From Candidatus Iainarchaeum sp. (GTDB taxonomy: Archaea > Iainarchaeota > Iainarchaeia > Iainarchaeales > Iainarchaeaceae): a DNA stretch of 45,037 bases. The notes under the pieces are model-generated. The model was not told the origin of the DNA. It was given only the letters and a program-made list of their open reading frames with translations, and searched no databases. Each line of letters starts with the position of its first letter. Position 1 is the stretch's first letter. The position numbers were made by a program, and so were the translations under genes. The stretch spans positions 1 to 45,037 of the forward strand of contig NZBD01000013.1 in NCBI GenBank assembly GCA_002687735.1. Direction: 5' to 3'. Positions 13,070 through 35,963 of the stretch are shown here, piece after piece.

Positions 13070-13073
13070 TCAC

Positions 13074-13448: not shown

Positions 13449-13449
13449 A

Positions 13450-15307: not shown

Positions 15308-16903
15308 ATGCAACAAAAAATTCCTGCAATTTTAATAATTCTGGCAATTAGTTTTGTTCTAATAGAATTGCCCCATTTAGAAATTGGATTGCCTTTGCAC
15401 AGTGATTCTTATGACAATATTGCTGCTGCTCAAGAAACAATTAGCCAAGGAACAATATTCATCGGAGATCCATATGCCCCTCCAAAAGAAAAATCAATTT
15501 ATTTTAATGAAAATCCGGGTTACGATCTAGAAACAGGTTATGTAGTATTGCTTTTATTGCTTTCTTTTTTCCCTTTTATCTCTCTCACAAGTTTGCCTCT
15601 TTTTTTCCCGTGGCTTGTTTCAATTTTAGTATTTCTCTCGACATTTATCTTATTAAGAAAATTATGTAGACAGGATTTTACTGCTTTTTTCAGTTCTCTC
15701 TTCATTTTTTTCCTTCCTTCAACTCAACAAATGTTAGGGCCGCTATTTTTAGTTGCCTCCTCATTTGGTCTAATACTCGTGCCTCTGCTACTTTTATTGG
15801 GTTTTAATTTTTTAACTCAAAGAACTCATGCTAAAGAATTAGCCTTATTGTTAATTTTCACTGCGTTTATTTACCCCCCGTCAGTAGTAATTTCCCTTAT
15901 TGCATTATTTTTCTTCATAATTGCTTCAAAAACTAATTTTGATCAAAACAAGCCTTTAGTGCGAGTATTTGCGGTTTTATCAATTTTAATTCTTGTTATG
16001 TATATGATCTGGGGGACTATGATTGCCGGAATTGATCCAATTCAGAACATTTTGTCCTATGGTTTTGCCGCAATCCTTGCCGGAGTCGATTTTTCCATTA
16101 ACACTTTGTTACTGAGGCAAGTGACATTGGAAAATATTCCTTTTTTTCATGAATATTTAGGTTTGCCATTATTTATTCTTTCAATAATTGCACTAATTTA
16201 TTTTATTTTTCGTGAATTTAAGGAAAAAAACAACGATCAAAATCTAATTTTTCTTTCAGCAATTGTTCTTTCAATCCTCACTTTTTTAAGTTTCGAAATA
16301 GGCCGTGGCATTATTGTTCCGACTGAAAGACTTGTTTTATTTGCTGCTTATTTTTTGCTTTTAACCCTTGGAATTTTTGTTTCGGAATTAATTATTTTTG
16401 TGAAAAATTATTTTTCGGAAAAAAATTTGTTAAATAAAATATTTAGCCAAAATTTTTTCTTGTTTTTTACTTTGCTTTTAACAATCATAATTATTTTTTC
16501 GAATCCAATCCAGACAAAGGATTTACAATTAAATATTCAACCTAATGAGTTCGATTCTCTTGAATGGATAGAAAATAACACTGCTCAAAACAGCCTTATT
16601 TTGGCTCCTCCATCCCTTTCAAAAGCAATAAAGGTTTTCACTAATCGGGATGTTACCTGCACTGTTTTCACTCGTTTTGGTTGTAATAAAAATTTAAATT
16701 TGCTTGTTTCTTCTTTTTTCTTTGCTAGTTGTGAAGAAAAAGAGAAAATAATTGATGATTATTTTAGTGCGGATTATGTTTTTCTCCAAAAAAAACTCCA
16801 ACTTCCTAGTAGAATTTTGGAATTTTCCGAGCAGAACTGCGATTTTTTGAATAAAAAATTCGAAGGGAAAAACACAATAATATATAAAATAGAAAGTCGT
16901 TAA
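15308..16903 (+). CDS. Polytopic membrane protein, GT-C-like (candidate lipid-linked sugar transferase or oligosaccharyltransferase-related)
   Basis: Many hydrophobic helices, acidic HSDSYDNIAAAQ in the first extracytoplasmic loop, soluble C-terminal tail; family assignment is architectural only. Confidence 0.55.
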   Translation: MQQKIPAILIILAISFVLIELPHLEIGLPLHSDSYDNIAAAQETISQGTIFIGDPYAPPKEKSIYFNENPGYDLETGYVVLLLLLSFFPFISLTSLPLFFPWLVSILVFLSTFILLRKLCRQDFTAFFSSLFIFFLPSTQQMLGPLFLVASSFGLILVPLLLLLGFNFLTQRTHAKELALLLIFTAFIYPPSVVISLIALFFFIIASKTNFDQNKPLVRVFAVLSILILVMYMIWGTMIAGIDPIQNILSYGFAAILAGVDFSINTLLLRQVTLENIPFFHEYLGLPLFILSIIALIYFIFREFKEKNNDQNLIFLSAIVLSILTFLSFEIGRGIIVPTERLVLFAAYFLLLTLGIFVSELIIFVKNYFSEKNLLNKIFSQNFFLFFTLLLTIIIIFSNPIQTKDLQLNIQPNEFDSLEWIENNTAQNSLILAPPSLSKAIKVFTNRDVTCTVFTRFGCNKNLNLLVSSFFFASCEEKEKIIDDYFSADYVFLQKKLQLPSRILEFSEQNCDFLNKKFEGKNTIIYKIESR

Positions 16904-17003: not shown

Positions 17004-20000
17004 ATGATAAACAATAGATTTGTCACGATTTTATTAGCACTAATTTTTTCAAGCATAGTTATCTCTGTGTTTGCTTTTCCAATTGGAAATGGTTCTGAAA
17101 TCCAAAATAATTATGACGAAATAGAAATTTTTAACTTAAAAAGTGCAGAACCAGAAGAAAAACCTTTTTACCTAGAATTTTTGGAGGAAAATTATCCGCA
17201 AAATTTTGACGAACCAGAGGACACAATTTTTTTCCCTTCTTTAACCGGAGAACAAGCTGAACAATCAGGAATTGTTGCAGAATTTTCAGGTTATGCAGGT
17301 TATGCTCCAACATGGACCTCAATGACTCTTAGTGTTTCATGCGCAAGCAGTGGACAGATTATAATTGCTACTGCTAATGGTGAGGCGGATGGCGAGAGTG
17401 ATACATTAAGGATAGACTGTACTGATGACGGTAGCACTCCAACCACCAGTAATAATGGTTTTTGTTCTACAACCGGGGATTCCTCTCCTTATGCCCTATC
17501 ATGTAATGGTGTCGGAGATCCCGGAGATGCTCTTGAAACTGTTAAGTGCAGAATGCATGACGGATCTAATTACAGTGATGTAAAAAGTGACACCTATACT
17601 GCAGACAACACCGCTCCAACCGGAACAGTTCTGGGCTTTGGAACAATAGCAACAACATCGATTGTTGTAACCGCTTCAGGAGCCAGTGATGCCGGTTGTT
17701 CAAATGTGCATGAGATTTCTCCTTATTACATTGACAGAACAGCTCCAACCGCAGCTAATTCTGGCTGGGGGTTAGGATCTTGGACTAATAATAGTCCTGC
17801 TTTGAGTAAAAACACACAATACACTTACAGGGCCAGAGTACGAGACGGAATACTTAATACTAGTGGTTATACTTCAACCCAAAGCAAATATACTCTTGCA
17901 GAGGCTCCTGCCTCCGCACCTATTGTTGATAATCCGTCAGGTTCCTCATTAGATGTTAATCCTAGCAGTGGTATTGGTAATCCTTCATCTACTCTTTATG
18001 CAATTGATTGCACCGGAGCTAATTGCCCTGCCAATGGCTGGATTAAAACTGATGGTACTTTTACATCTTCAGCTCAATGGCAGACTGATTCTACATGGGG
18101 AACAATACCTGTAATTGAGTTAGATGCTGGTACAGAATATTGTTTCCAGTCTAAAGCAAAAAATGGGGACAATGTAGAAACTAGTTTGAGTGGCTCTGCT
18201 TGTGGTACAACTTCTACTGCACCAGATGCGCCGACCATTGCTGTTGATTATAATTTTACTTATCCTTTGAACGCTGAGTTAGGTGCGGTGGATGTTAGGT
18301 GGAGCAATGTTGCTAGTGAAACTGGTTACAAATTATACCGGAGCACTGATAACTCTAGTTATTCGCTAATAAATTCCCCTGCTGCTAATGTAACCTATTA
18401 CTCAGACGTTGATTTGCCTAATAACACAACTTATTGGTATAAGATCAAATCAACCAATGGTGCCGGAGATAGTGGCGATTCGAATATTGACACTGTTGTA
18501 ATTCCGGATAGGAACAGTCCAATAAACCCAACTTTAACTTTGACTCCGCAGAATAATTCCAATAACAGGATTGACGCCAGCTGGACTGATAATGGGGATT
18601 ATTCAAGTGAATGGCCATATGCAACACAAATTGATCCAAGTAATCTTAAAGGCTATTGGAGGTTTGAGGAAAACACAGGAACAAACACACTTGATTTGAG
18701 TGGAAATGGAAATGACGGAACAATTTCCGGAGCTGATTGGAACAGCTCAGGCAAAAGAGGAAATGGACTTAACTTTAATGATGCGGCGGGTAATGAATAT
18801 GTTTCTACCGGGATAACTTCACATCCGACGAGTTTTACAGTCTCGGCTTGGGCAATGATAGATAATACTGCTAATGATTATGAAACAATATTCAGCAAGT
18901 TCACTTCAGGACCATTCAATGGATTCTTCCTGAGAAAATATGGTTCGACTCTTTCTGCTTATGTTTACAATGCTGGTACAGGATACGGTTCCTCAAGTAC
19001 ATTCACTGTTGGAAAGTGGACTCATTGGACCATGAGCTTTGACGGCACCACAATAAGATTATACAAGAATGGTGAACTTGTTGACAATGATCCGGGTACT
19101 ATGGGAAGTAACGCTACCGCAATGCTCATTGGCGGAAATTATGCGGGAACTGAAACATTTGACGGCCAAATAGACGAAGTCCAGTATCACACATCAGCCC
19201 TAACTCCTGAACAAGTTAGAGCAAAGTACATGCATGATTCTTTAGTGGGGTATTGGGGATTTGAGGGAGGCAGTTTATTAGATAGTTCAAGTGAGATTAA
19301 TGCCGGATCTGCTGTTGGAGGAATTAATTGCAGTGGCGACCCTGGAATAATGGGGGATGGCTGCACATTTGGAGGCAGTGGGGAATATGTTGATATTATT
19401 GCTGTTGATAATCAGGTAGATTCATATCAAGGAACTATTTCTGCTTGGGCTTATCCAACATCAACAGCATCAAATCGTTATATAATCGCGGGCATAGGAA
19501 CAGGCACTAACAGATACTACGTTCAATGGAATAACGATGACCTTAGAGTTTTTAGGGGAAACCCAGGAGTTGCAATTAACCTTGATCTAGCTACTACATT
19601 AAACCAGTGGTATCACATAGTGATGACTTGGGAGTATGATGGCACTACCCAAACAATCAAAGGTTACCTTGATGGAGATTACAAGGGTTCTAACACGTTT
19701 ACTGGTGGTGCAGGTACTGGAGGGTCATTTAGAATTGGCAGATGGTCCACAGACCAAGAATTTCCCGGGCACATTGATGAAGTAATGTTCTATGATACCC
19801 CGCTTTCATATGCTGATATAAACAAACTTTACCAAGCGGGAAAAAGAAAATTCAGTTTAAGCAGGAGTTCAACTTTAGGAGGGCCTTATATTCCGGTTAA
19901 TGGTGCTTTTGAAACAATTGACTCTGTTTTGCCAAGTGGCTGGACTGTAACTGACACAAGTACAGGAAGTATAGTTGCGGGTGACAGTTTAGATGTAATT

Positions 20001-23000
20001 GGTTCAGGTTCCTGGAGAACAACGGCATTTACTTATGACACTACTTTAGCTAGGAATGTTGGAGTTACTTATGAAGGGGACTATAATGCTGATGTTTTGA
20101 GAGACACTATGATTGGTTTTAAGGATAATAGTGGATCTGTCTCTTACTCTAATGGAGTACATAACATTCGTTTCCATTCTAATGGAAATATTCATATTTA
20201 TGAGGATTACAGAAACAGAGGCGTAGTAAGTACATGGGCTGCCGGCAACACATACCATTGGAAAATAATTTTGAAACAAACAGGAGCACTTTATTATGTA
20301 GATAATGTTTTAATTTATGATTCCTATTACAGTACGGAGAGTAACCTGAAACCATATTTCACACAACGCACCGCCGGTCTTGCAAGCTATGATAATTTGA
20401 AAATAACCGTTCCGACAATAAGCCTCTCTCTCCAAGACACCGGCGCAACTGATAATGCTACTCCTGCAACAATGAGTGCACCAACAGTTACTTCTTCAAC
20501 AATAAACTCTTGTACAATGAGCTACTCTGCGCCGTCAGATAATGGTACAACATACTATTACACTTTGGATTCGGTTGATGATTTTAGAAATGCAAGCAAT
20601 TTAGGTGCTGATAAATATGCTAGCGGAATACTAGTTGATGCTGGATTTGAAAATGCCTGCACTGGTGATGGTTGTGGTGGCTGGACAGGCAACCCAGACA
20701 CCGGTTGGAATGACGGGTGGGCAGGAACTAAAACAATTGACACTACTGTTTCCCACACAGGAAACAACAGCTGGAAAGTAGCAGGTGCTGGTTTTGATGC
20801 AGGAGAAACACCAGGTTCTGTTAACACTGGAGGCCCTTATCAGGATTTCACTTTAGCTAACACAACTTTCCTAATTGGAGGTTGGTTTAAAACTGATACC
20901 GCTGCTACTGCATCAACTAACTTCCGAATGTGTGATGGTACAGAAGTTGAACAAACATTTACTGCATCAGATGGCTGGGTTAATTTTGAGGGAACCTGTA
21001 CGGATTCTGCTGGTGCTCTTGCTTCCAAAATCCACTTTTTTGCTGGTTCTCCGTCTTCAGCATCTTCAAGTGTCTGGATGGATGATTTGTACATTAAAGA
21101 AATAAAATCAGCAACTGTTACTACTGGTTTAGCTGCTACGCCTTACACTATTACCGGCACCGGAGGAGGAAGCGATGCGGCTTCTCCTTACACTGCAGGC
21201 AGCTTAACCGCTAACACTTCCTACACTTATTCGGTTAAAGCAACAGATGTTGCTGGTAACATTGGAACTGATTCCAGCAATGACACGTGTATTACTTTGC
21301 CTGCAACTCCAAGCATTAGTACTATTGCCGGAAGTTCGTGTGGTTCAACAATAACAGACAAAACCCCAACTATTGCAGGATCTGCAATCGGTGGGTCAGC
21401 TGCGCATACTCATAGTGACTGGGCTATTTGTGATACTGATGCTGCTCCAACAGGAGAACCAAATACTTGTCCTGGCGGAACAACTGATTCTTCTGCAAAT
21501 GATACTAGTAATAAAACCAGTTGGACTCCAGGAAGTGATGTTGCTGTCGGAACTTATTATGTTTTTACAAAATACAATAACTCTGCTAGTGGTTCCGGAG
21601 GAGATTCAGCTTACAGTGCTAGTTGTTCATTTACAATTGAAGCTGATACATCACCAACTTTAACAGTTGATTATAATTCCACTTATGCTTTGAATTCGGA
21701 GTGGGGTGCAAGTATTTTGAGTTGGAGTAATCTTACTGGAGAGTCTGCTTACAAAATATTCAGAAGCACTGATAATTCTACTTTTGATACAATTGAGAAT
21801 GCATTAGCTGCTGATACAACCTCTTACAATGACCTTGATTTGAGTGATAACACAACTTATTATTACAAAGTTGCTGCAACGATTTCGGCAACGGATTATA
21901 ATAGTTCAGTTGTTTCTGTTGTTACTTCTGATCGTGAAGGGCCTAGTGTTTCAACTTTAACTTTGACTCCTGATGCTGGAAATAATAGGATTGATGTTAG
22001 TTGGACTATTCCTGATGATAATTCAAGTGAATGGCCACAAGTAGTACAAATTGATCCAAGTAATGTTGCGGGCCACTGGAGGTTTGAAGAAAATTCAGGT
22101 ACAACAACTTATGATCTTTCAGGAAATGGTAATGATGGAACTTTAACCAATTCTCCAACTTGGACAACAGGAAAAATCGGAAACGGACTTGACTTTGCTG
22201 ATGCGGTTGGCGCTCAATATGTTACTACAGGGATAACTTCGCATCCAACAAAGTTTACTGTTTCAGCATGGGTGATAATAGATAATACTGATAATGATTA
22301 TGAAACAATATTCAGCAAGTTCACTTCAGGGCCATTCAATGGATTCTTTCTGAGAAAATATGGTTCAAACCTTTCTGCTTATGTTTACAATGCGGGTACT
22401 GGATATGGATCATCAAGCAAATTCACTGTTGGAAAGTGGACTCATTGGACAATGAGTTATGATGGTATCACAATAAGACTTTACAAGGACGGCGAGCTTG
22501 TTGACAATGATCCTGGAACTTTAGGAAGCAATGCTACAGCAATGCTCATTGGTGGAAATTATGCGGGATCAGAAACATTTGACGGCAAAATAGATGAAGT
22601 CAGCTATTACACATCAACCTTAACCCAAGAACAAATTAGAGCAAAGTACATGCAGGGGGCTTTGGTTGGTTATTATACTCTTAATGAATCCACTGGAACA
22701 ACTGCTTATGATTCGAGTATAAAAGGGTTTGATGGAATACATCAGCCTTCTCCTTATGACCCTGCTATAGTTACTGGTAGAATGGGAAACGCTCTCCAAT
22801 TTGATGGCGATACGAATGTTGTAATTAGCGGAGTTGACTGGGGATTTGTTAATGGTACTCCTCATAGTTTTGCTGCTTGGATTAACCTTGATGCTGGTAA
22901 TGGCGGTAGAAGAACTATTATTGGACAGGAAAGAAGTACACGAATAACTTTCCAGGTTTTAGGTGGTGAAAATATTGAGTTAAGGCACGATGATGGCGGA

Positions 23001-26000
23001 GCTGTATCAACAGGAAATGTTCCTGAGGGAGAATGGGCACATGTAGCTGTTACTTATGATGGCATCGACTCTGCGGATAACACTAAATTTTATATTAATG
23101 GAGTTCTCTCCGGTACTGGAAACTCTTTTAATTCTCAGGGTGTAAGTACTACTTGGTATATCGGACATGAGCAAAGGTTCAGTGAGGATTTCCTTGGTAA
23201 AATCGATGAGGTAATGGTTTTTGATTCAAACATAAGTGCTGCAGACATCAACAATCTTTACAATGCCGGAGTAAGAAAATATAATTTAAGCAGGAGTGCC
23301 ACTGAAGGAGGAACTTATTCTGTTATTGATGCTAACACACTTTTAACTTCCTATACTGACACTGGTGCAAATGATACAACTGCTCCAAGCGGAAACACTA
23401 TTTCATCCATTACTCCAACCATTGATCAACTAACGGTAAATTATAGTACATCAACCGATGCCGGGAACACTTATTATTACACTTTGGATGCGATTGATGA
23501 CTTTGGAAATGAGAGTAATTTGTTTACAACTAATAATTCAGGTTTTGAGCAAGGTGATACTACTGATTATGCTGTTTATTGGAGCGCGAATTGTTCAGCA
23601 ACTAGTGCCGAAGCTCACACAGGAAATTATTCTCTTGCTTGTACTGGTGCAACTGCTGGAGGAGCCTACCATGATAATATTAATGTATTAACCAATGGAG
23701 AAAAATATTTGGTTAGTGCTTGGGCAAAGTCAACTGCAGGAGCAACTGGTACATTTAATATCTGGGTTCATGATGTTGCTGGGGCTGGAGATGTTACTAG
23801 TACAAACAGTACTCCGGGAACCGAATGGACTTATTACTCAACAGTATTCACTGCAACCTCTACTTTAGATGCAAGAGTTCACTTGGATTATGATAATGGC
23901 TCTGGAACAATTTATGCGGATAATGTAAAAATACAGAAAATTGAAACAGACACAATTACAACTGGTTTGCATGCTACTCCTTATTTTGTTGATTGTACAA
24001 GTGGTGCTTGCACTACTGGGGTTGAGGATTGGGTTAGTGGTACTAGTGATATTGCAACTGGTTTGGATGTTAATGCTTCTTATTGTTTTAAGGTTAGGTC
24101 TAGGGATGCTGCGGCTAATGGGTCGGCTCTTTCCGCAGAGGTTTGTAAGTTTACTCTTGCTGAGCAGCCAACAATAAGTTCTGTTACCTGCACCTCTAAT
24201 TCTTGTAGCGTTGCTTTTAGTATGGGGACTAATCCAGCTGCTACGGAATATTATATTACTGAAAAAAGTGGTAATACTGGCGCCACAGATTCTGGTTGGG
24301 CTACCGCAGCTTCTCCTTACTCTGACACTGGTTTGGATGCAGGAACCCAGTATTGTTATACAATAAAATCCAGGAATGGCGATAATACTGAAACAAGTGA
24401 AACTGGCCAAACTTGTGATACAACAGGTTCTGGGAATCCAACTCTAACAGTTGATTATAATTCCACTTATCCTTTGAACTCTGATTTGGGTGCAAGTATT
24501 TTGAGATGGAATAATCTTGCAGGAGAATCTGCTTACAAGTTATTCAGGAGCACCGATAATTATAATTTCACTACGATTGAGAATGCATTAGCTGCAGACA
24601 CAGTCTCCTACAATGACCTTGATTTGAGTGATAACACAACTTATTATTACAAAGTTGCTGCAACTATTTCGGCAACGGATTATAATAGTGGAGTTGTTTC
24701 TGTTGTAATTCCGGATAGGAATGGTCCAATTAGTCCAACTTTGACTTTAACTCCGAATGCTGGAAATAATAGGATTGACACTAGTTGGACTGATGTAAAC
24801 GATTCATCAAGCGAGTGGCCGCAAACTGTTCAAATCGATCCAAGTAATATTGTTGGTCACTGGAGGTTTGAGAGTGATATTGCTAATATTTCTACTTCAG
24901 AGCACACTTCTTATACGCAAGGTTCATTGAGTTATTCTGCCGGAAAAATTGGCAATGCACTTGATTTAGACGGAACAGCAAACACAGGAGCAGAATTATT
25001 AAGAGATGCTAATGCTGGTTTGTATGAAAGCACTTTCTCTTACTCTTTTTGGTTTAAAGCTTCAACTACTAGTTCTGGAGTTGCTAACGCTAGATTAATT
25101 TCTAGGGATTGTTCAGATTACTTTTGCTTATTGATGGATCAAGATGATGGAGCAGGAGCTGGAAAGTTAAATCACACTTATGCACCGAGCACCGGTACTG
25201 GAAACTTAACAATAAGCAATCCAACTGGTTGGCATCATGTTGTGGCAACGTGGGATGTTCCTAACACTACTGGAACCCTTTATCTTGACGGAGTCCAAAT
25301 ACACCAAAATACATCAATCCCTGCATTTACTGCAAGTGCAAAGCCTGTTGTAATTGGTGGAAACACTGAAGCAGATAACGATATTTCAGGCAGTGAATTC
25401 AAAGGTCTGGTGGATGAGGTTGTTTATTACAATATTACCTTAACTCCTGATCAAGTAAAGGAAAAGTACCTGCAGGACTCTTTATTGGGTTATTGGAGGT
25501 TTGATGAGGGAACAGGAACTGAAGTTGAGGATTCAACTGTAAATGATAATAATGGAACAATTACTAATGCTACTTGGACAAGTGGGAAAATCGGGAATGC
25601 ATTGACATTTGATGGTTCAAGTACTGGAGTGAACACAGGAAATGGAGCTATACTAAACGACGCTAACGCAATGAGTATTTCCTCGTGGATTAATGTGAAT
25701 AGTGGTGCAGCAGATTTAGGAACTATTGCAATGGAGTGGACAGGATATAACTTAGCCTACCGAACTGATGGTGGATCTAATGATTATTTCTGGTTTGAAC
25801 TCCGAGGTACTGATGCTAGTACAAGAGACATTACATCAAGCAACGGTTACTACAATATTTCTGAAGAAACCTGGCATCATGTTGTGGCAACGTATGATGG
25901 AGCTGACATGAGAATATTCATGGATGGGGTTTTAATGAAAGAAGAAAACGTCGGAGCGTTTACAATTACTGATGATGCCAGTCCTCTGAGAATTGGAGAG

Positions 26001-29000
26001 CACACTGATTCAGGAAGCAGATACTTTGATGGTGAAATCGATGAAGTAATGATTTTCGACGCAAACCTAAGCGCAACAGATATCAACAAACTTTATCATG
26101 CGGGAGTAAGAAAATTCGGTTTAAGCAGGGCAACAGCTTCAGGAGGAACTTATACTCCTGTTAATGGTTTGTTTGATGATTTTACTGACAATTCTATTGA
26201 TACTTCAAAGTGGACGGTTGTTGACACTGGTGCAGGGACCGTAACAGAGACTAGCGGTGCTTTGGAACTTGTTAGTACTGACTCTTGGACTACAACAGGA
26301 ATCTATTCCACTCCAAATTTCTCCAGAGCCAATGGATTGATTTTTGAGGGAGATGTTAATGGAACTCATGGTTCTGGTTGGACTTCAGCAATTTTTGGTT
26401 TTAAAGATACCACTGGCAATATTCAGTATACAACTGCAATGCCATACAGCATGTACATGGGTTATCATTCAAGCACTTATCCAAACGGAGCAATAGGAAT
26501 TTATAATTACAGCACATTGTTGGCGATATACACAACTGAGAATTGGGCTGCAGATGAAAAGCATCACTTCAAAATAATTGCTAAACCTGGAGGAGGCGCA
26601 CAATACTTTTGGGATGACAAGCTTCTCTATGATTTGGATGTTGCTGATGATACTTCTATTTTAGGGGTCCTAAAAGCTGGTATTGATCCTTATCCTGCTG
26701 CTCCTGATAAATTTACTTTCGATAACCTAAAAGTAACTCCATTACTAACAACAACTTCTCTCCAAGATACTGCTGCAACTGATACAATTGTTCCTAGTGT
26801 TCCTGGAAGTTTAACTGTTGATGGGGAAACAACCTCTACATTAGATGTTAATTGGACTGCTTCAACTGATGATGGAAACACTTTCTATTACATTTTGGAG
26901 GCGTTTGATGACTTTGGAAATGAGAGTAATTTGATTGGCAATCCAGGATTTGAAAAATCCACTTTACAATTGCCATTCACAAGCGCTATTAGCGGTGGAA
27001 CTATTTCTATAGATTCAACTACCTCTTATACTGGCGATAATTCTTTGAAGTTCGTTGCAACAGCTGGTGCTTACACTGCTCCGTATAATGATTCAAGTGC
27101 GCCTCTTTATACTTTGACTGAGGATTCAAACTTTTTGTTTACAGTATGGGCAAAAACAGACGTTCCAACCACAGATCAATTCCGAATGTATATTTTCTGT
27201 TTGGATTCCGCCTATGATTGGATAACACTTAACAGTGAAATTACCACTTTAACAACAAACTGGCAGCAGTATAGTGTCTCTCATCAGTGTGAAAATTCTG
27301 CTCACGATTATGTAAGTGTAAGACTTGATAATGCTACTAATGGTGAAGCAATAAATTGGTATGATGATGTAAAACTTGTCAAAGTTGAATCAGCGACAGT
27401 AACAACTGGTTTGAAGCAGTACATGATTCAGTGTACAAGTAAAGGAGGAGGGGCTTGTGATTTATCCGACACTATAATTACTTCTCCAACTATTACGAAT
27501 AAATTCAATTCACTGGATTCAGGAACAGAATATTGTTTTACTGTTCTTGCTACTGATAATGTGGATAACAATTCTGCTGCAACAAGTGCGGTTTGTAGAA
27601 CAACTCTTTCAAGTTCAATTACTTTAAGTTCAAGCTCCCATGGAAATGAAGCAGCATGGTATAATGATCAAACTCCAACTATAGCAACATCAGGAAGCTT
27701 TGACCACATTCACTATTGGGTTACACAAAATGCTTCCGAATCTGCAGCAGATATTTACTCCAATGGAACTCAAGATGCGGATGGATCAATAACAGACATG
27801 GCCGGAATTACAAGCGATGGAGTTTGGTATGTTCACGCGGTTTCTCACAACGCAGATCACGGGGGAACAGCTACGGATGCTTACAAAATACAGTTTGATG
27901 ATAATGTTCCAACGCTCACAAGCTTAACAGTTAGTTCTTGGTCAGGAGGAGTAGCTAATTACACTAATGATGTAACGCCTCCATTTGCAATTAATGGAGC
28001 AGCAGATACAGGAGGATCAGGATTATACCAAATGGCATTCAGCTGTAATGATTCCACCTGGAGTTCCTGGACAGCTTATGCAACAACTCACAGTTCTTTT
28101 AATGTTAGAACCGAAGACGGTTGTAGTGATGCAGAGGGAAGTAAAACAATTTATGTTAAATTAAAAGATAATGCAGACAATGAATCAGCTAGTTCAGCAA
28201 CAGCTGCATTTACTCTTGATCAAAGCGCTCCAACAAGCAACAGTATTAGTGTTCACGCTAGTGCTTGGACCGGAGGAGTAACTAATTATACGAATGATAA
28301 TACCCCGCAGTTAACAATTGCTTCTACTAATGCTTATCAAATGAAATTCAGTTGTGATGACAGCACCTGGACTTCTAATGAAGCTTATGCAACATCTATT
28401 TCAAATTTCGCTATTTCAAATTTCGATGTTAATTCTGGAAGCAATGGCTGTGCCGCAGCTGATGGAAGTAAAACAGTTTATGTAGTGTTTAGAGACGAAG
28501 CCGGAAACAATGCAACATCAGCTAGTACAACTGCATTTACTCTTGATCATATTAATCCTCCATTAGCATTTATTAGTCCGGCTGATGCATTCAGATATAA
28601 AACAGGAAATGATCCTTCATTAGTTTCAAGAACCACTCCTGATACCTCAGGATTACAAGATTGTTGGGCAAGAATTGGTACTGGAAATCCTCCAACATCT
28701 CCATTAAGAGAGGTCCAAGGTTCAATCAGCACTACTGATTGTACTTACTCAGGTTACGCTGGTTTAAGCGAAGGAACTTATTATTGGGACTTTAATGCAA
28801 TGGATAAAGCAGGAAACTGGAGTTCTTACTCAAGCACAAGAACTATTATCAGTGATAACACCGCTCCAACTGTTCCAAGTACTTTCGTTATAGAGGAAGA
28901 TTCAACCTCTCCTTATTGGGATAATGTTAATAACAGCAAAACCGAGTTAGGGTTTGTTGCTTTAGAAAGCGGAGAAGCCTGTAAGTGGAATTTAACAAGT

Positions 29001-32000
29001 GTTGCTTATGCTTCAATGTCTACTGGTTGTACGGTTGGGGGAACCGATGTTAATTGTGCATTTGGAAACTTAACCCAAACAAACACCGGCGGCCAATACT
29101 TGAATAGGTATCATTCATGTATTGATTCGGTTGCAAATGATTATGCTGCACAACAAACAGCTTTTGGTGTTGACTGGTCAAACCCAACCACAAGCGATAA
29201 TTCAAGCACAACAATAGTAGCACCAACTTATAATGTTACAATTACTGAAGCTGATAATGCTTCTAACACAGGAGCTGACATTACCACGGTTTATTGTAAA
29301 GGAGTTGCTTGTACTCCTGGCACTTCAGTTGATAATGGTGGAACAGTTGCTTTCACTGCTTCTGACAGAGGAGCAACCGCTTTGAGATACTATTCAACTG
29401 ACCTAGCTGGAAATGTTCAATCAACAGTTACTAAAACAATTAACATTAACCAATTACCAAGCTTCTCAGCTGCAAGTGATGATGCTGGAACAATTCAGGG
29501 AGGCACAACCGTAACAGTAACAACAACCTCTGATGATCCAGATGCTGGTCAGACACAAAAACTAGTTATTTGTAAAACATCCGGAGTAACCGGAACTGAT
29601 TGTGATGGTGGAGCAGGGGATAGGTATTGTACAGTTACAACTGGCGTTGATGGTAATGATCCAAATTGTGATTGGACTTCTGAAAGTGATGATTCAACTC
29701 ACACTTGGTATGCTTATGTTTTCGATTCTCTTAACGAGGGTTCATCAGATAACCCAAGAACTGGTTCTTACACTAATGATTCAACAGATCCAATAGTTTC
29801 CCCATCAACTCCTGCTGATGGAGCAGGAACAAGTGACACAACCCCAACGTTTACAGGAACGGCTAATGAAAACATTAGCAATTGCCAAATCCAAATGTCC
29901 ACTAACGAAAATTTCTCTACAACACTCCACAGTAATTTAGACGGAAATGTTAGCGGGGGAACAACCTGTACTTACAACTTAGCCGATGTAAATGCTTTAA
30001 GTGACGGAACTTATTATTGGAGATTAAAAGGAACTGATACTGTTGGAAATGCAGGAACTTATGATGCTAATTACTCCGTTATAATTGATACCTCAATCCT
30101 ATCAACATCAGTTGTTAGTGTGGCTGGAGATTCAAGCTCTCCTTACTGGGATACTTCTAATGATTCTCAAACAACAATTTTGGTGGATGGAGAAACAGGA
30201 ATGAATTGCAGATGGTCAACTGATGATGAGAGTTATGATCAAATGGTTACTGATGGAGAAACAACTTGTTCAGTTTCAGGAATACAGGCAACCTGTAATT
30301 TAGGAGCAATTACCCAAACAACAGCAACAACTTACCATGTTGCTTGTGAGGATAGTGTTGGAAATGGTCAAGAGGCAAATTCCAACCTAGATATTACTTT
30401 TGGAGTTGATTGGACAGCTCCTGTTCCTGGACAAACATTAGTAACTTCTTTAAGCACTGGAACTCATGTAAAAAGCCCGGCCACATTTGAAACCGCTGTT
30501 GTAACTGATAACCTTGGAGCCGGAAATTTAGATACCACCTCTTGTGAGTACACAATTGATAATTCTACTTGGGACTCAGGAACCTGGAGTGGTGCTTCAA
30601 CCAAATGTGTTGATAGTAGCATTGCTTTGAGTGCGGGAGTTAATACTTTCAATTATAGAATGAGAGATCAGGCAGGAAACTTAGGAACAGGCACATCAGT
30701 TGCAAGAACAAGAGACAATGATAATCCAACGGGTGCAACTCTAGGGTTTGGAACAGTTACTTATAACTCAATAACCGCAACCGTTTCCGGAGCAACTGAT
30801 GCTGGAGCTGGTTTACATAGTACTCCTTACAATTTTAGTGAATCAGTTACATCTGGTTCAAGTGGCTTCCAAGCAGGAACAAGTTGGTTACACCAACCAG
30901 GAGGAGCTGGTTTAGATGCTAATATCGCTTACACTTATTCCGTTAATGTTAGGGATGCTCTCTCAAATACTCTTGGTGTTGCATCCCAAACAAAGTTCAC
31001 TTACGCAAAAGTTCCGGGAATTAGTTCTGTTACTTGTGACGCGGTTAATTGTACAGTTAACTTTGATGTTAACGGAAACCCTGCAGCAACAGAATTCTTT
31101 ATACTAGAAACAACAGGAAATACTGGCGGGTCCAATAAACCATGGAATGCTGTTGCCTCTCCTTATATTGATACAGGAATTACTCCGGGAACCCAATATT
31201 GTTACAGAATTAAAGCTAGAAACTATGATGGAGTAGAAACAGCATTCTTCCCGCCAACCGGACAATCTCCTATATGTGGTTCTGGTTCTAGCGTGTTTGT
31301 TCAAACATCTATTAGAGATGTCAATGGCTTCTTTGATTCACAAAACCCAGACAAATGGATTGCACAGTGGACGAACACTGATGTTAATGCTCATTTAACT
31401 TGCACTGGTGGAACAGGGGCTGGTGAAAACATCGGATTCGGACCGGGTAATAGTGGAACGGACTACTTTACTTGGAATGATGCTAAATCAACCCCAACTG
31501 ACACAGGAACCGACAAAAATGTTACCTTTGATAATGGAATTAATTTAACCACTGATCAATTTTCAGATACTGTGTTAAAGCTCAAGGGATCTGCTTTACA
31601 AGGAAATATTAATATTGTTGTTAGAAACGGTTCTAATGATACTGAATGGACCCATTATTCTGCTTGGTTAGAACCATTCAACATTAATCCTCGATATGTT
31701 GGAGCTAATGTTAGGTATAGAACCGCTTCCACTAGAGCTGGTTTAACTTCAGCTGGGTGGAGTAACTTCAAGCCTCCAAATAACGAGTTATCTAGTATAA
31801 CCGGACAATGGATCGAATTCCATGTTAGATTATTCAGGAATACGGCTATTCAAACAACAACTGATTCAATTTCTTTGAAAGGATTTTTCATTGATTATTC
31901 AGCTACCTCAGTTTCTCAGGGTACGGCATGTCAGGCAACATATTACAGACTTGATACTGATGCCAGTGCTACAGAATCGTTTGTGCCGACAGGAGCAGAA

Positions 32001-35000
32001 GCCGGTTCGGTGTTTGCTTATAGTCAAAACTGGAGATTATTAGATGCAACCGATAAAAATATTTTCTTTAACCAAGATGGAAACTATGCTCTAAAGTACT
32101 TCTCCAGAAGCACTTCCAGTAATGATGAATTTTCAAAGCAAGTTAATATTCAGATAAAGAAATTCCCAGATTCACTTAATTTGGATAGCTTTTGTTCAGG
32201 AATCCAGGATAGTGCTAACCTAAATATTGATTGGGCAGATTCATCAAGTTCAGAGGGAGTTTATGCTTACAGGTTATTTGCTTCCACAACCTCTGATTTT
32301 ACTCACAGAAAATTAATGTTTGAATCAGGTTCAACTACTCAAGCATCAATTAATTTGCAAACTGACTTGAATTTTAGTGTTTGTGGAGATGAAACTTGTT
32401 CTGTTAACGAGAATTGTCCGGCTGATTCATTGAGTTGTGACTTTGGACAAATTTGCAGTGATGGATGCCAGTTACAAGAAACAGTTACCTATACAGAAAA
32501 CCCAACCACTTGTGACCCAGGAATAAATGACTCATCATTAGATAGTTGGTGTGAAAACTTGTTCGGAACGGGTTATGCTTGTATTGATGGTTGTGTTCCA
32601 ACAGGCAGTAATCAGTTTAGTGACAACACCTGGGAAACAACAGCTTCTGGAAGCAGTAATAGTTTTTGTGGAGACAACTATTGTGATGCTGGAGAATTCT
32701 GTCCAAGAGATAATATTTTCTGTGGAGACGGATCTGTTTGTGTAGCGGGCTGTCAGGGAACATCAGATGTTTGCGGGGATAGTAGTTGTAGCGAGTTTGA
32801 GAATTGTAGTTTAGATGATAGTGCTTGTGGAAATGGTTATGCTTGTTTAGATGGTTGTGTTCCAACAGAATCAGGAACTGCTAACCAAAATGATTTCTTT
32901 GTCCCTCTTTACCAAACAACAGTTGGATCTGATTTAGGAACTTGCGGAGATGGGTTTTGTGGTTCGGGAGAGTTTTGTCCGTTTGATAATAGGTATTGTA
33001 GTGAGGCCGGAGGAGCAAATATTACTCAGGGAATTTGTGTAAATGGCTGTGTTGACCCAATTAATGATAGTTTAGGCGGATTAACTACTTTGAATTGTGG
33101 TGATGGTGTTTGTGGAATTGGAGAGCACTGCCCAACAGATAATGCTGCTTGTGAAACTGGAGAAGCTTGTATTAGTGGTTGTTTACCCGCTTCTGGAGAC
33201 CTTATTGATAATCCAGAGTTCACTAGGTTTGATTCCCATAGGGGTTCATTAGATGGGTCAATGTGGTTCCAATTAGAGATTGAATCTGTTACTGGTTCAA
33301 GGGTCAGAAGCCCGCCTGTTAATTGTCAACTTGACTTTGAGAGCCCATTCCAGATTCCTAGTGACGGAAGAGGATTAGTTACAGAAATCCAAAGTGGTTG
33401 GGGAGACCTGAACCTGAACTTTGGAAACACTGCGTTCAGCACTGATAATAATGTTGTAATTGATGCTAACACTAGTGCTCCAACATTCCCATACGGAAAC
33501 ATGTTACAAGCTTATAACTTCGAAGTATTTGGAGGGTTCCATGAGTTTGAAGGTGAAAGACCAAGATTAACATTAGATATTAATGTTAGTGCTTTGAGCT
33601 GTTCACCAAATTGTACTAGCACTGATTTACAAAGAGTAAGTATTTATGATTACAACGAAACAACTGGCCTATGGACAAGACTGCCATCAACAGTTAACTT
33701 AGACACCAATGAAGTTTGGGCTGATTTGAACCACTTTTCATTATACGGTCAGGGAGAAGACAATGACAGTCCAACTGTAACTTTACAAACTCCAAGCGAT
33801 TCAGCAACAGAAGTTGCGGCATCCCCAGACTTCACTGCAAACCCAAGTGAAACAGTAACAAACTGTTATTTACAGGTTGACAATGCTAGCGATTTCAGCA
33901 GTCCGTATTCAGACTTAGATGGCGTTGATGTTGGAACCGATTGTGATTACGCCGGATCAGAATATACAACCGCATTCCCTGATGACACCACTGTTTACTG
34001 GCGCATGAAGGCAACGGATGAAGCAGAGAATGTTGGAGTTTATGGAGCTGCATTCAGCTTTGCTACTACCGACACTTCAGGCGGCGATGGAGGAGGCCCA
34101 ACTTGCGGTAATGATTCATGTGAAGCAGGAGAAACTGAAGCCAGCTGTCCGGCTGATTGTGCTGTAGCTCCTTATTGTGGTGATGGAACCTGTGATTCTG
34201 GAGAAAACAGGAACAATTGTCCTGCTGACTGTGGAACTCCGCCAGAGGTTTGTGATGGCAGAGACAATGATCATGATAGCTTAGTAGATGAAGATCTTGG
34301 CACTGAATCCGGGTATCTGGAACAGGCTTGTGGAACATGCGGAGTACAAATTTGTTCTACCGGTACATTCAATGTTACCTGTAATGAACCGGGAGTATGC
34401 GGAGCAACAGACTTAGTAATACCAGCTTATTCAGCAGAAGCACAAGTAGAATACGAAACAACAGGAGTAGTTTCATTTAATGTGCAGAACAATGGAGAAG
34501 CAACAACAGAAACATTTATTGTTGCATTGAAAACTGATTCAGGAGCAACAATAGTTGATACTACAAGTATTACCGGTCTTGCAGCCGGAGACATGACCGG
34601 AGGCGCATTCAATATTGTTTGGAATGAATCTAATGCCGGCACTACAAAATCATATTATATCGAAGCGGATTCCACAAGCGTAATTGCTGAAGCGGATGAA
34701 TTCAATAATAATACTGCAAACTTCGATATACAGTTTGGTCAGGAAGAAATCTGCAGCAATTTGGTTGATGATGACTTTGACGGAGTTATTAATGAGGGTT
34801 GTGGATTACCTAACCTGACAATTACTAGTGTTGAGGTCGGAACTCCTGAATATGTTGATAGTGAATTGATCAGTGTTGACTTTACTGTTACTGTTGTAAC
34901 TGAATATGAGGATGTTGACACTGAATTTATCGTTTCCTATTTCAAAGATATTTTGGACGTTGATAACAGGATAACTCTTGAACTCATAGACTCTATTAGA

Positions 35001-35963
35001 GTTGGCGAAACAATAACCCTGCAGTTTGTTTACACTGCGCCTATAGGTGAGGTTTTCAGATTTGAGGGGCCTAATCATGTTGAAAGTGATGTCGCATTAT
35101 TTGCTGACCTGACAAATTTCTATGTTGAGGTAGATTCCGAGGGAAATATTGAGGAGGTTGATGAAGAGGATAACATTGTAACTATTAACATCCAAAACTT
35201 AGTTCCGGATTTAGCCTTTGAACCAACAACAACAAACATTCCTGCGTCCTCTTTTATCGGGGAAACTATACCTGTTTCAGCAACGGTTGTTAACAACGGA
35301 GATGCCACGGCAATTGCAGAATCTTATAGCGTTTCTATTTTTGTTGATAATTTTGTGGTTCCGGATTCCGGAACTATAGCCGGAGTTGAATTGATCAGCG
35401 GTGCTTCGGAAGAAGTTTCATTTAATATTCCGACTTCTTTATTAGCTGAGGGAGCACATGTGATAAAAATAAAGGTAGATTCTTTGAATGAACTTGCTGA
35501 GTCAAACGAGTCAAACAATGAAACTGAAGGGCCGCATATAGTGCTTTCCGGTGACGATCAGATTTTCACTTATCCTGTATTTACGGATAGGGAACCAATA
35601 ATGGTTGGTGTTTGGAATTCAATAGAAACTCCATCAAATTTTACTTTTAATATTCCGCGCGTTAGTATCTCAAGCATCGAACTTTTAACCCTGACTGGTT
35701 TGAGCAGTATTTCAAACTTCGAAATTAACTTGTTAAATACAAATGCGGATGTGGATACTTTTAATATTAAAGTCAACAAGGATTCTGTTAAAATTGCAGA
35801 TCAGGATTTTGAGGTAATTGAATCAAATACAAGCAATGTTATTGATCTGGTTAACGATAGGACCATTGACTGGGTTTTGGATGCGAGGTTTTTGAAATTA
35901 ATGCATTATGAAAGAATAAACCAGTTATCATTTGTGTGGTGGCAGTTGTATGGTGAAAGATGA
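17004..35963 (+). CDS. Giant secreted multidomain protein (about 6300 aa): FN3/Ig-like, LamG-like, CBM-like jelly roll, Cys-rich repeats, CARDB-like domains
   Basis: Single uninterrupted ORF; ATG at 17004 gives signal peptide MINNRFVTILLALIFSSIVISVFA; LamG-like GYWRFEENTGTNTLDLSGNGNDG...IDEV; CGDxxC repeats; CARDB-like NNGxATxxxxxV...EADEFNNN. Confidence 0.9.
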   Translation: MINNRFVTILLALIFSSIVISVFAFPIGNGSEIQNNYDEIEIFNLKSAEPEEKPFYLEFLEENYPQNFDEPEDTIFFPSLTGEQAEQSGIVAEFSGYAGYAPTWTSMTLSVSCASSGQIIIATANGEADGESDTLRIDCTDDGSTPTTSNNGFCSTTGDSSPYALSCNGVGDPGDALETVKCRMHDGSNYSDVKSDTYTADNTAPTGTVLGFGTIATTSIVVTASGASDAGCSNVHEISPYYIDRTAPTAANSGWGLGSWTNNSPALSKNTQYTYRARVRDGILNTSGYTSTQSKYTLAEAPASAPIVDNPSGSSLDVNPSSGIGNPSSTLYAIDCTGANCPANGWIKTDGTFTSSAQWQTDSTWGTIPVIELDAGTEYCFQSKAKNGDNVETSLSGSACGTTSTAPDAPTIAVDYNFTYPLNAELGAVDVRWSNVASETGYKLYRSTDNSSYSLINSPAANVTYYSDVDLPNNTTYWYKIKSTNGAGDSGDSNIDTVVIPDRNSPINPTLTLTPQNNSNNRIDASWTDNGDYSSEWPYATQIDPSNLKGYWRFEENTGTNTLDLSGNGNDGTISGADWNSSGKRGNGLNFNDAAGNEYVSTGITSHPTSFTVSAWAMIDNTANDYETIFSKFTSGPFNGFFLRKYGSTLSAYVYNAGTGYGSSSTFTVGKWTHWTMSFDGTTIRLYKNGELVDNDPGTMGSNATAMLIGGNYAGTETFDGQIDEVQYHTSALTPEQVRAKYMHDSLVGYWGFEGGSLLDSSSEINAGSAVGGINCSGDPGIMGDGCTFGGSGEYVDIIAVDNQVDSYQGTISAWAYPTSTASNRYIIAGIGTGTNRYYVQWNNDDLRVFRGNPGVAINLDLATTLNQWYHIVMTWEYDGTTQTIKGYLDGDYKGSNTFTGGAGTGGSFRIGRWSTDQEFPGHIDEVMFYDTPLSYADINKLYQAGKRKFSLSRSSTLGGPYIPVNGAFETIDSVLPSGWTVTDTSTGSIVAGDSLDVIGSGSWRTTAFTYDTTLARNVGVTYEGDYNADVLRDTMIGFKDNSGSVSYSNGVHNIRFHSNGNIHIYEDYRNRGVVSTWAAGNTYHWKIILKQTGALYYVDNVLIYDSYYSTESNLKPYFTQRTAGLASYDNLKITVPTISLSLQDTGATDNATPATMSAPTVTSSTINSCTMSYSAPSDNGTTYYYTLDSVDDFRNASNLGADKYASGILVDAGFENACTGDGCGGWTGNPDTGWNDGWAGTKTIDTTVSHTGNNSWKVAGAGFDAGETPGSVNTGGPYQDFTLANTTFLIGGWFKTDTAATASTNFRMCDGTEVEQTFTASDGWVNFEGTCTDSAGALASKIHFFAGSPSSASSSVWMDDLYIKEIKSATVTTGLAATPYTITGTGGGSDAASPYTAGSLTANTSYTYSVKATDVAGNIGTDSSNDTCITLPATPSISTIAGSSCGSTITDKTPTIAGSAIGGSAAHTHSDWAICDTDAAPTGEPNTCPGGTTDSSANDTSNKTSWTPGSDVAVGTYYVFTKYNNSASGSGGDSAYSASCSFTIEADTSPTLTVDYNSTYALNSEWGASILSWSNLTGESAYKIFRSTDNSTFDTIENALAADTTSYNDLDLSDNTTYYYKVAATISATDYNSSVVSVVTSDREGPSVSTLTLTPDAGNNRIDVSWTIPDDNSSEWPQVVQIDPSNVAGHWRFEENSGTTTYDLSGNGNDGTLTNSPTWTTGKIGNGLDFADAVGAQYVTTGITSHPTKFTVSAWVIIDNTDNDYETIFSKFTSGPFNGFFLRKYGSNLSAYVYNAGTGYGSSSKFTVGKWTHWTMSYDGITIRLYKDGELVDNDPGTLGSNATAMLIGGNYAGSETFDGKIDEVSYYTSTLTQEQIRAKYMQGALVGYYTLNESTGTTAYDSSIKGFDGIHQPSPYDPAIVTGRMGNALQFDGDTNVVISGVDWGFVNGTPHSFAAWINLDAGNGGRRTIIGQERSTRITFQVLGGENIELRHDDGGAVSTGNVPEGEWAHVAVTYDGIDSADNTKFYINGVLSGTGNSFNSQGVSTTWYIGHEQRFSEDFLGKIDEVMVFDSNISAADINNLYNAGVRKYNLSRSATEGGTYSVIDANTLLTSYTDTGANDTTAPSGNTISSITPTIDQLTVNYSTSTDAGNTYYYTLDAIDDFGNESNLFTTNNSGFEQGDTTDYAVYWSANCSATSAEAHTGNYSLACTGATAGGAYHDNINVLTNGEKYLVSAWAKSTAGATGTFNIWVHDVAGAGDVTSTNSTPGTEWTYYSTVFTATSTLDARVHLDYDNGSGTIYADNVKIQKIETDTITTGLHATPYFVDCTSGACTTGVEDWVSGTSDIATGLDVNASYCFKVRSRDAAANGSALSAEVCKFTLAEQPTISSVTCTSNSCSVAFSMGTNPAATEYYITEKSGNTGATDSGWATAASPYSDTGLDAGTQYCYTIKSRNGDNTETSETGQTCDTTGSGNPTLTVDYNSTYPLNSDLGASILRWNNLAGESAYKLFRSTDNYNFTTIENALAADTVSYNDLDLSDNTTYYYKVAATISATDYNSGVVSVVIPDRNGPISPTLTLTPNAGNNRIDTSWTDVNDSSSEWPQTVQIDPSNIVGHWRFESDIANISTSEHTSYTQGSLSYSAGKIGNALDLDGTANTGAELLRDANAGLYESTFSYSFWFKASTTSSGVANARLISRDCSDYFCLLMDQDDGAGAGKLNHTYAPSTGTGNLTISNPTGWHHVVATWDVPNTTGTLYLDGVQIHQNTSIPAFTASAKPVVIGGNTEADNDISGSEFKGLVDEVVYYNITLTPDQVKEKYLQDSLLGYWRFDEGTGTEVEDSTVNDNNGTITNATWTSGKIGNALTFDGSSTGVNTGNGAILNDANAMSISSWINVNSGAADLGTIAMEWTGYNLAYRTDGGSNDYFWFELRGTDASTRDITSSNGYYNISEETWHHVVATYDGADMRIFMDGVLMKEENVGAFTITDDASPLRIGEHTDSGSRYFDGEIDEVMIFDANLSATDINKLYHAGVRKFGLSRATASGGTYTPVNGLFDDFTDNSIDTSKWTVVDTGAGTVTETSGALELVSTDSWTTTGIYSTPNFSRANGLIFEGDVNGTHGSGWTSAIFGFKDTTGNIQYTTAMPYSMYMGYHSSTYPNGAIGIYNYSTLLAIYTTENWAADEKHHFKIIAKPGGGAQYFWDDKLLYDLDVADDTSILGVLKAGIDPYPAAPDKFTFDNLKVTPLLTTTSLQDTAATDTIVPSVPGSLTVDGETTSTLDVNWTASTDDGNTFYYILEAFDDFGNESNLIGNPGFEKSTLQLPFTSAISGGTISIDSTTSYTGDNSLKFVATAGAYTAPYNDSSAPLYTLTEDSNFLFTVWAKTDVPTTDQFRMYIFCLDSAYDWITLNSEITTLTTNWQQYSVSHQCENSAHDYVSVRLDNATNGEAINWYDDVKLVKVESATVTTGLKQYMIQCTSKGGGACDLSDTIITSPTITNKFNSLDSGTEYCFTVLATDNVDNNSAATSAVCRTTLSSSITLSSSSHGNEAAWYNDQTPTIATSGSFDHIHYWVTQNASESAADIYSNGTQDADGSITDMAGITSDGVWYVHAVSHNADHGGTATDAYKIQFDDNVPTLTSLTVSSWSGGVANYTNDVTPPFAINGAADTGGSGLYQMAFSCNDSTWSSWTAYATTHSSFNVRTEDGCSDAEGSKTIYVKLKDNADNESASSATAAFTLDQSAPTSNSISVHASAWTGGVTNYTNDNTPQLTIASTNAYQMKFSCDDSTWTSNEAYATSISNFAISNFDVNSGSNGCAAADGSKTVYVVFRDEAGNNATSASTTAFTLDHINPPLAFISPADAFRYKTGNDPSLVSRTTPDTSGLQDCWARIGTGNPPTSPLREVQGSISTTDCTYSGYAGLSEGTYYWDFNAMDKAGNWSSYSSTRTIISDNTAPTVPSTFVIEEDSTSPYWDNVNNSKTELGFVALESGEACKWNLTSVAYASMSTGCTVGGTDVNCAFGNLTQTNTGGQYLNRYHSCIDSVANDYAAQQTAFGVDWSNPTTSDNSSTTIVAPTYNVTITEADNASNTGADITTVYCKGVACTPGTSVDNGGTVAFTASDRGATALRYYSTDLAGNVQSTVTKTININQLPSFSAASDDAGTIQGGTTVTVTTTSDDPDAGQTQKLVICKTSGVTGTDCDGGAGDRYCTVTTGVDGNDPNCDWTSESDDSTHTWYAYVFDSLNEGSSDNPRTGSYTNDSTDPIVSPSTPADGAGTSDTTPTFTGTANENISNCQIQMSTNENFSTTLHSNLDGNVSGGTTCTYNLADVNALSDGTYYWRLKGTDTVGNAGTYDANYSVIIDTSILSTSVVSVAGDSSSPYWDTSNDSQTTILVDGETGMNCRWSTDDESYDQMVTDGETTCSVSGIQATCNLGAITQTTATTYHVACEDSVGNGQEANSNLDITFGVDWTAPVPGQTLVTSLSTGTHVKSPATFETAVVTDNLGAGNLDTTSCEYTIDNSTWDSGTWSGASTKCVDSSIALSAGVNTFNYRMRDQAGNLGTGTSVARTRDNDNPTGATLGFGTVTYNSITATVSGATDAGAGLHSTPYNFSESVTSGSSGFQAGTSWLHQPGGAGLDANIAYTYSVNVRDALSNTLGVASQTKFTYAKVPGISSVTCDAVNCTVNFDVNGNPAATEFFILETTGNTGGSNKPWNAVASPYIDTGITPGTQYCYRIKARNYDGVETAFFPPTGQSPICGSGSSVFVQTSIRDVNGFFDSQNPDKWIAQWTNTDVNAHLTCTGGTGAGENIGFGPGNSGTDYFTWNDAKSTPTDTGTDKNVTFDNGINLTTDQFSDTVLKLKGSALQGNINIVVRNGSNDTEWTHYSAWLEPFNINPRYVGANVRYRTASTRAGLTSAGWSNFKPPNNELSSITGQWIEFHVRLFRNTAIQTTTDSISLKGFFIDYSATSVSQGTACQATYYRLDTDASATESFVPTGAEAGSVFAYSQNWRLLDATDKNIFFNQDGNYALKYFSRSTSSNDEFSKQVNIQIKKFPDSLNLDSFCSGIQDSANLNIDWADSSSSEGVYAYRLFASTTSDFTHRKLMFESGSTTQASINLQTDLNFSVCGDETCSVNENCPADSLSCDFGQICSDGCQLQETVTYTENPTTCDPGINDSSLDSWCENLFGTGYACIDGCVPTGSNQFSDNTWETTASGSSNSFCGDNYCDAGEFCPRDNIFCGDGSVCVAGCQGTSDVCGDSSCSEFENCSLDDSACGNGYACLDGCVPTESGTANQNDFFVPLYQTTVGSDLGTCGDGFCGSGEFCPFDNRYCSEAGGANITQGICVNGCVDPINDSLGGLTTLNCGDGVCGIGEHCPTDNAACETGEACISGCLPASGDLIDNPEFTRFDSHRGSLDGSMWFQLEIESVTGSRVRSPPVNCQLDFESPFQIPSDGRGLVTEIQSGWGDLNLNFGNTAFSTDNNVVIDANTSAPTFPYGNMLQAYNFEVFGGFHEFEGERPRLTLDINVSALSCSPNCTSTDLQRVSIYDYNETTGLWTRLPSTVNLDTNEVWADLNHFSLYGQGEDNDSPTVTLQTPSDSATEVAASPDFTANPSETVTNCYLQVDNASDFSSPYSDLDGVDVGTDCDYAGSEYTTAFPDDTTVYWRMKATDEAENVGVYGAAFSFATTDTSGGDGGGPTCGNDSCEAGETEASCPADCAVAPYCGDGTCDSGENRNNCPADCGTPPEVCDGRDNDHDSLVDEDLGTESGYLEQACGTCGVQICSTGTFNVTCNEPGVCGATDLVIPAYSAEAQVEYETTGVVSFNVQNNGEATTETFIVALKTDSGATIVDTTSITGLAAGDMTGGAFNIVWNESNAGTTKSYYIEADSTSVIAEADEFNNNTANFDIQFGQEEICSNLVDDDFDGVINEGCGLPNLTITSVEVGTPEYVDSELISVDFTVTVVTEYEDVDTEFIVSYFKDILDVDNRITLELIDSIRVGETITLQFVYTAPIGEVFRFEGPNHVESDVALFADLTNFYVEVDSEGNIEEVDEEDNIVTINIQNLVPDLAFEPTTTNIPASSFIGETIPVSATVVNNGDATAIAESYSVSIFVDNFVVPDSGTIAGVELISGASEEVSFNIPTSLLAEGAHVIKIKVDSLNELAESNESNNETEGPHIVLSGDDQIFTYPVFTDREPIMVGVWNSIETPSNFTFNIPRVSISSIELLTLTGLSSISNFEINLLNTNADVDTFNIKVNKDSVKIADQDFEVIESNTSNVIDLVNDRTIDWVLDARFLKLMHYERINQLSFVWWQLYGER
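18242..20610 (+). repeat. Supermodule A of the giant gene (FN3-like + two LamG-like + jelly-roll insert + FN3-like)
   Basis: Begins VDYNFTYPLNAELGAVDVRWSN, ends YYYTLDSVDDFRNASNLG; approximate limits. Confidence 0.75.
21660..23525 (+). repeat. Supermodule B of the giant gene (shorter copy lacking the jelly-roll insert)
   Basis: Begins TVDYNSTYALNSEWGASILSWSN, ends YYYTLDAIDDFGNESNL; approximate limits. Confidence 0.75.
24440..26935 (+). repeat. Supermodule C of the giant gene
   Basis: Begins TVDYNSTYPLNSDLGASILRWNN, ends FYYILEAFDDFGNESNL; approximate limits. Confidence 0.75.
32382..33185 (+). repeat. Array of six cysteine-rich repeats in the giant protein
   Basis: Four units match C-x4-C-x5-C-x6-C-x5-C-x3-C exactly (e.g. 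CGDNYCDAGEFCPRDNIFCGDGSVCVAGC); two are variants. Confidence 0.85.
34404..35545 (+). other. Three CARDB-like domains near the giant protein C-terminus
   Basis: VSFNVQNNGEATTETFIVAL...EADEFNNNTANFDI; VEVDSEGNIEEVDEEDNIVTI; VSATVVNNGDATAIAESYSV...LAESNESNNE. Confidence 0.7.

Follow-up and report, generated by a model that had tools for sequence, protein, structure and literature searches.

The giant gene A of a metagenome-assembled genome (MAG; 551,902 bases, 63% complete) from a very small, uncultured archaeon of the Diapherotrites (Iainarchaeota) is real and native, and belongs to a conserved two-gene surface system. It lies on contig 13, the whole of which (45,037 nucleotides) was analyzed and is referred to below as the window. 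The first-pass annotation missed the conserved pair that A forms with the following gene B: A is devoid of any anchor of its own, the proposed dock and the probable anchor constitute the conserved core, and the head is variable. We lean towards the view that A and B together form a membrane-tethered, two-part giant surface fibre that binds glycans. A literature search, whose scope left out most subscription papers and all preprints, returned no description of such a pair in Diapherotrites.

The giant gene and its product

The A gene (17004..35963, + strand) is a ~19-kb open frame of 6,319 codons, from the ATG at 17004 to the stop at 35963, and represents ~3.4% of the assembled genome. The uninterrupted frame reported at first pass holds. 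The longest open run in base-shuffled A DNA reaches 157 codons at most. The frame is also open from an upstream TTG at 16977; the ATG at 17004 is supported as the start by the AGGAAAGGGG stretch located shortly 5' of it. An assembly artefact is very unlikely, since an independent MAG (G005, CG11 37_9) carries a collinear relative of 4,814 residues (31% identity over 3,433 alignment columns, spanning A residues 3237-6319). The GC content at the third codon position is 0.25-0.27 in A and 0.22-0.27 in the neighbouring genes, as would be expected of a native gene. Overall, A is richer in GC, mostly through codon position 2, which reflects its Thr, Ser, Gly and Ala content. A recent horizontal transfer, considered in view of this higher GC, is unsupported, given the agreement at the third position. 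Rfam and tRNA scans across the window reported no match.

The encoded secreted protein comprises 6,319 residues (673 kDa, pI 4.1; 670 kDa and pI 4.1 when mature). Its composition is indeed rich in Asn, Thr and Ser, which together make up 30% of the residues. The predicted signal peptide is of the Sec type (MINNRFVTILLALIFSSIVISVFA, ~residues 1-24; 17004..17075, + strand; cleavage site placed by eye), and a hydrophobic-span scan of A detected no membrane span besides it. The N-x-S/T sequons had also been taken as evidence of glycosylation. Their number in A (114) is at the chance level of composition-matched shuffles (104.7±7.7), and this argument was dropped; the count is mildly raised in the G005 relative (111 vs 86±8.6). 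N-glycosylation is nonetheless possible, since a homologue of STT3/AglB is encoded on another contig of the genome.

Three repeat units, each with two LamG domains, occupy ~residues 455-3400 of A. The LamG pairs map to 18789..19820 (18789-19217 and 19377-19820), 22212..23252 and 25014..26087, and a CBM_4_9 carbohydrate-binding domain (E=2.8e-12) to 23532..23870, all on the + strand. The six matches with Laminin_G_3 (PF13385) score 79-90 bits, against a curated cut-off of 27.6, and the closest solved LamG relative comes from an extracellular arabinanase (PDB 5hon, E=1e-4). The first LamG domains of units 1 and 2 are 86% identical, whereas the other LamG pairs share 24-37% identity, which indicates that whole units were duplicated, one of them recently. 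Further on are FN3-like domains, Big_13 Ig-like domains in the middle part of A (best match 29829..30092, + strand; several others near threshold), Cys-rich CGDGxC..GE.C..D repeats (32376..33212, + strand) and two CARDB stretches, the downstream one being the better match (35205..35525, + strand). Pfam scans of A returned no catalytic, protease or toxin-like domain. With some 60 domain-sized units, the extended protein might measure 200 nm or more. Six Laminin_G_3 domains and a CBM_4_9, all of carbohydrate-binding type and behind a signal peptide, fit the earlier description of an adhesion-like surface protein, adhesion being a role predicted from the domain families. A ZU5/UPA-like self-cleavage of A at DLNH-FS (residue ~5575) was considered and dropped: this site reads HFS in A and in G005 but HLS in G020, and is therefore not conserved.

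The C-terminal domain, its partner B and the variable heads

The proposed dock is the conserved C-terminal domain (CTD) of A (35550..35963, + strand), of ~130 residues, with the motif WW-DP-FLK-MHYERIN-LS-WW. Residues F31, E35, W128, R142 and N144 are invariant in alignment A1 of six sequences. Comparison of the CTD with Pfam and NCBIfam reports no family, its profile finds no convincing match among PDB sequences, and its AlphaFold model is of low confidence (pLDDT ~30-50) and does not identify a fold. As a domain without a transmembrane segment, it is unlike the PGF/PEF-CTERM tail of archaeosortase substrates, whose short C-terminal motif, TM helix and basic tail are absent from the end of A. 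The CTD occurs in 9 of the 92 genomes of the phylum, with one copy in each. All relatives from this genome search fall within the order of the window, and the twelve genomes of the set belonging to other orders gave no match. A search for related loci returned four relatives of the CTD, three of them under the title Candidatus Diapherotrites archaeon and one from archaeon GW2011_AR10 (complete genome CP010424.1), the last coinciding with the G020 locus. In G009, A is naturally split (L048:1-4269): the first frame ends with WADLNRIG, and the second piece, which bears the CTD, begins anew with a separate signal peptide, as expected if the C-terminal part of A is a self-sufficient docking unit.

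The B gene (35960..38623, + strand) starts within the stop codon of A (ATGA) and encodes 887 residues. B possesses a signal peptide, two DDDxSI-type beta domains, a CARDB and a CarboxypepD_reg-like domain, and C-terminal membrane helices (TM residues 780-813 and 850-876; 38297..38587, + strand). It ends with KAIRVK, an instance of the conserved C-terminus K(A/P)I(K/R)V. B is probably the anchor of A. Its CARDB domain matches that of a cell-surface protein (PDB 2l0d, E=9e-5), the resemblance being confined to this domain, and the B profile returned nothing else among PDB sequences. The AlphaFold model of B, with a mean pLDDT of 52, is of low confidence and leaves the fold unassigned.

All nine CTD-bearing genomes also match B. 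The two are directly adjacent in seven of them, separated by one small ORF in G009, and on separate contigs in G031. The two genes touch or overlap in G005, G012, G020, G060 and G061, as do A-like and B-like ORFs in G019 and G021; in G024, an A tail adjoining B is broken by a frame interruption. The B-type C-terminal region is also found at the ends of other surface proteins of the order. In G022, it terminates a 3,562-residue Ig-type frame that unites giant and anchor in one chain, so that the joining of a giant to a B-type anchor does occur in nature.

The N-terminal parts differ widely. The six LamG domains and the CBM of the window protein are replaced by LamG and FG-GAP repeats in G012 (3,153 residues), by an FN3 head in G005 (4,814 residues) and by InlB-type repeats in the A-like ORF ahead of the B-like ORF of G021 (~2,170 residues). 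The A proteins of G060 and G061 (836 and 575 residues) contain little beyond CARDB and metal-binding motifs. Lengths thus range from 575 to 6,319 residues. This comparison excludes two regions that read as N, namely the central part of the giant of G020 (AR10) and the sequence preceding B in G011. As judged from these sequences, the head of A is swapped between lineages while the CTD and B stay, a design common to the order.

The GT-C-like gene and the neighbouring loci

Upstream of A, the gene at 15308..16903 (+ strand) encodes a GT-C-like polytopic membrane protein of 531 residues with ~10 predicted TM helices. It returned no hit above cut-off with curated families, and shows full-length homology with the product of a gene adjoining A-B in L047 (E=3e-19), with which it shares a conserved D-[SE]-Y-D stretch after TM1; the GT-C superfamily is characterized by polytopic membrane proteins with an acidic motif in the first outer loop. 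The GT-C-like neighbour noticed at first pass is genuine, and its linkage appears to be kept: of the 12 testable relatives, 10 adjoin A-B or B-like genes (G008, G019, G021, G022, G028, G039, G046, G060 and G061, plus G024, in which the gene directly precedes a frame with LamG that is truncated by the contig end). The relatives in G020 and G036 are unlinked, and those of G001, G002 and G052, on contigs too short to count, are left out. At several of these loci, the B-like match covers mainly the C-terminal anchor region. It is this linkage, and not the number of sequons, that argues for a connection with glycans.

A glycan locus is also present in the window, as first noted, with a GT2, four GT4 and a flippase. 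The GT4-type genes form two tandem paralogue pairs (1846-2934/2931-3935 and 3949-5085/5082-6242, within 1846-6242), and a sulfatase/phosphoethanolamine-transferase-like gene, cut by the contig start (3-1076), adjoins the locus. The region 8456-15258 encodes two MaoC-like dehydratases, FabG, a KAS III (FabH), a radical SAM protein and indolepyruvate ferredoxin oxidoreductase-like subunits; speculatively, its product could be an aryl-acyl chain started from an arylacetyl-CoA. In G024 (L069), the GT-C gene also adjoins genes of FabH, FabG and MaoC-like type, after which come flippase-like ORFs.

Downstream of B are the conserved genes of GAPDH (38694..39677, + strand), a cupin-type glucose-6-phosphate isomerase (40117..40923, - strand) and phosphoglycerate kinase (40955..42151, + strand). 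The same genes follow B in G000, G005, G012 and G020, and partly in G049, G001 and G024. In G003, a genome of the same family, pfkB and gapdh are directly adjacent, whereas G005 has A-B between them; A and B thus appear to come and go together.

Other genes recur near these loci. A KaiC-like ATPase gene with two secreted-type protein genes bearing charged, probably cytoplasmic tails (assigned by eye) lies near B-like or GT-C genes in several families (L047:14983-18874, L064:12539-16796, L065:12029-16205, L072:6049-10195), and such sets possibly belong to a larger surface complex. A TraB-like gene, recognized by eye from its GTAHIS..S.ELV motif, is a repeated neighbour of A or A-like genes, also in several families (L045:2-754, L047:6732-7895, L067:4510-5658, L050:7201-8379). 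In G005, a type IV pilus-like locus (L019:1-8204, by eye) is situated within a few kb of the giant gene and comprises a FlaI/VirB11-type ATPase fragment, pilin-like ORFs and a protein with a class III signal peptide.

Proposed mechanism, alternatives and known systems

We infer an A-B contact, a glycan ligand, a target cell and a GT-C activity that would combine as follows. A would leave the cell by the Sec pathway and fold outside into a long chain of Ig, FN3, LamG and CBM modules. Its C-terminal CARDB and CTD would dock on the extracellular part of B, whose C-terminal helices would hold the complex on the membrane. The N-terminal head would bind glycans, those of a host cell, of another nearby cell or of the matrix around the archaeon being the most likely targets, and would be free to change between lineages, dock and anchor remaining constant. 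The linked GT-C-like protein would probably modify A or B, or make an accompanying surface glycan. Such a tether is suggested by the signal peptide of A and its lack of any other TM segment, the C-terminal TM helices of B, the ATGA overlap and the abutting genes of relatives, the presence of B in every CTD-bearing genome, the G022 fusion, the differing heads and the GT-C linkage. Counting against it are the low pLDDT values of both B and the CTD, the patchiness of the pair (G003 is devoid of it), its location on two contigs in G031, and the unlinked GT-C relatives of G020 and G036. Host attachment by A is plausible for a DPANN archaeon. A broader proposal is that A, B and the GT-C-like protein constitute an undescribed archaeal surface-display system, a modular receptor-binding fibre of Diapherotrites. 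Each genome would have a single giant exoprotein, exchangeable between lineages, which the CTD would direct specifically to its cognate membrane anchor, and a glycosyltransferase would be dedicated to the system; this we advance tentatively, as a possibility short of probable.

The head might instead gather extracellular polysaccharide for a saccharolytic, possibly free-living archaeon, without any host contact. The CBM_4_9 and LamG domains, the arabinanase relative and the adjoining glycolysis genes suit this idea, as does the free-living lifestyle proposed for some Diapherotrites in passages of PMC7414124; yet A is devoid of a catalytic domain and the head is not kept carbohydrate-active across lineages, so we hold it unlikely. 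Since passages of PMC7414124 and PMC6642349 consider some Diapherotrites free-living, polysaccharide capture and matrix attachment stay real rivals to host attachment.

A, being acidic, very long, rich in Thr, Ser and Asn and provided with Cys-rich repeats, could also envelop the cell in a protective, S-layer-like coat or mesh, a role that has been proposed for halomucin, with adhesion secondary. An essential regular lattice is difficult to reconcile with the clean absence of A-B from the syntenic site of G003 and with A lengths between 575 and over 6,000 residues, and a coat of this kind seems to us rather improbable. A device resembling the SPEAREs and acting on a host cell, as a secretion channel or an effector, is suggested by the similar size, the LamG and Ig domains and the DPANN affiliation (as portions of PMC6642349 and PMC10266531 describe them); against this, Pfam scans detect no VirB4/TraG ATPase and no protease or toxin-like domain, A is without a membrane span, and no ATPase partner encoded with A-B was seen in the window, which makes this reading very improbable.

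The SPEARE giants of Nanohaloarchaeota reach 9,409 residues, carry LamG/Ig-like domains and are proposed to mediate host contact, according to PMC6642349; these proteins were reanalyzed in PMC10266531. A is similar in being a DPANN protein of thousands of residues with extracellular LamG/Ig-like adhesion domains. However, SPEAREs are described there as single chains in which a TM segment is combined with a VirB4/TraG-like ATPase domain on the cytoplasmic side, earlier read as a restriction enzyme, and PMC10266531 places a VirB4/TraG ATPase gene directly downstream in two nanohaloarchaea. A, in contrast, has no in-chain TM segment and a separate anchor gene. Pfam and NCBIfam scans find no VirB4/TraG-like ATPase domain in A or B, and the genes downstream of A (B, GAPDH, cupin GPI, PGK) include no such ATPase. 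A is therefore not classed as a SPEARE, although it may work similarly as an attachment fibre.

Adhesion or attachment is likewise predicted, in sections of PMC7414124 and PMC10266531, respectively, for Undinarchaeota LamG/concanavalin-like proteins (arCOG07813) and for a nanohaloarchaeal LamG operon. A resembles these by description, in its LamG modules and predicted adhesion; its conserved CTD and B partner are features that those sections do not describe for other DPANN LamG proteins. Halomucin of Haloquadratum walsbyi (~9,000 residues, named in PMC6642349) is likened to A, as a giant secreted archaeal sugar-binding protein, by description and not by sequence. Docking and ligand binding are testable with small recombinant pieces, with no need to culture the organism, and the CTD together with B provides a compact marker for finding fibres whose heads are unrecognisable. 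DPANN giant adhesin-like proteins are so far known mainly from nanohaloarchaea, and A-B would represent a second design, with fibre and anchor in separate genes, a constant dock and interchangeable heads.
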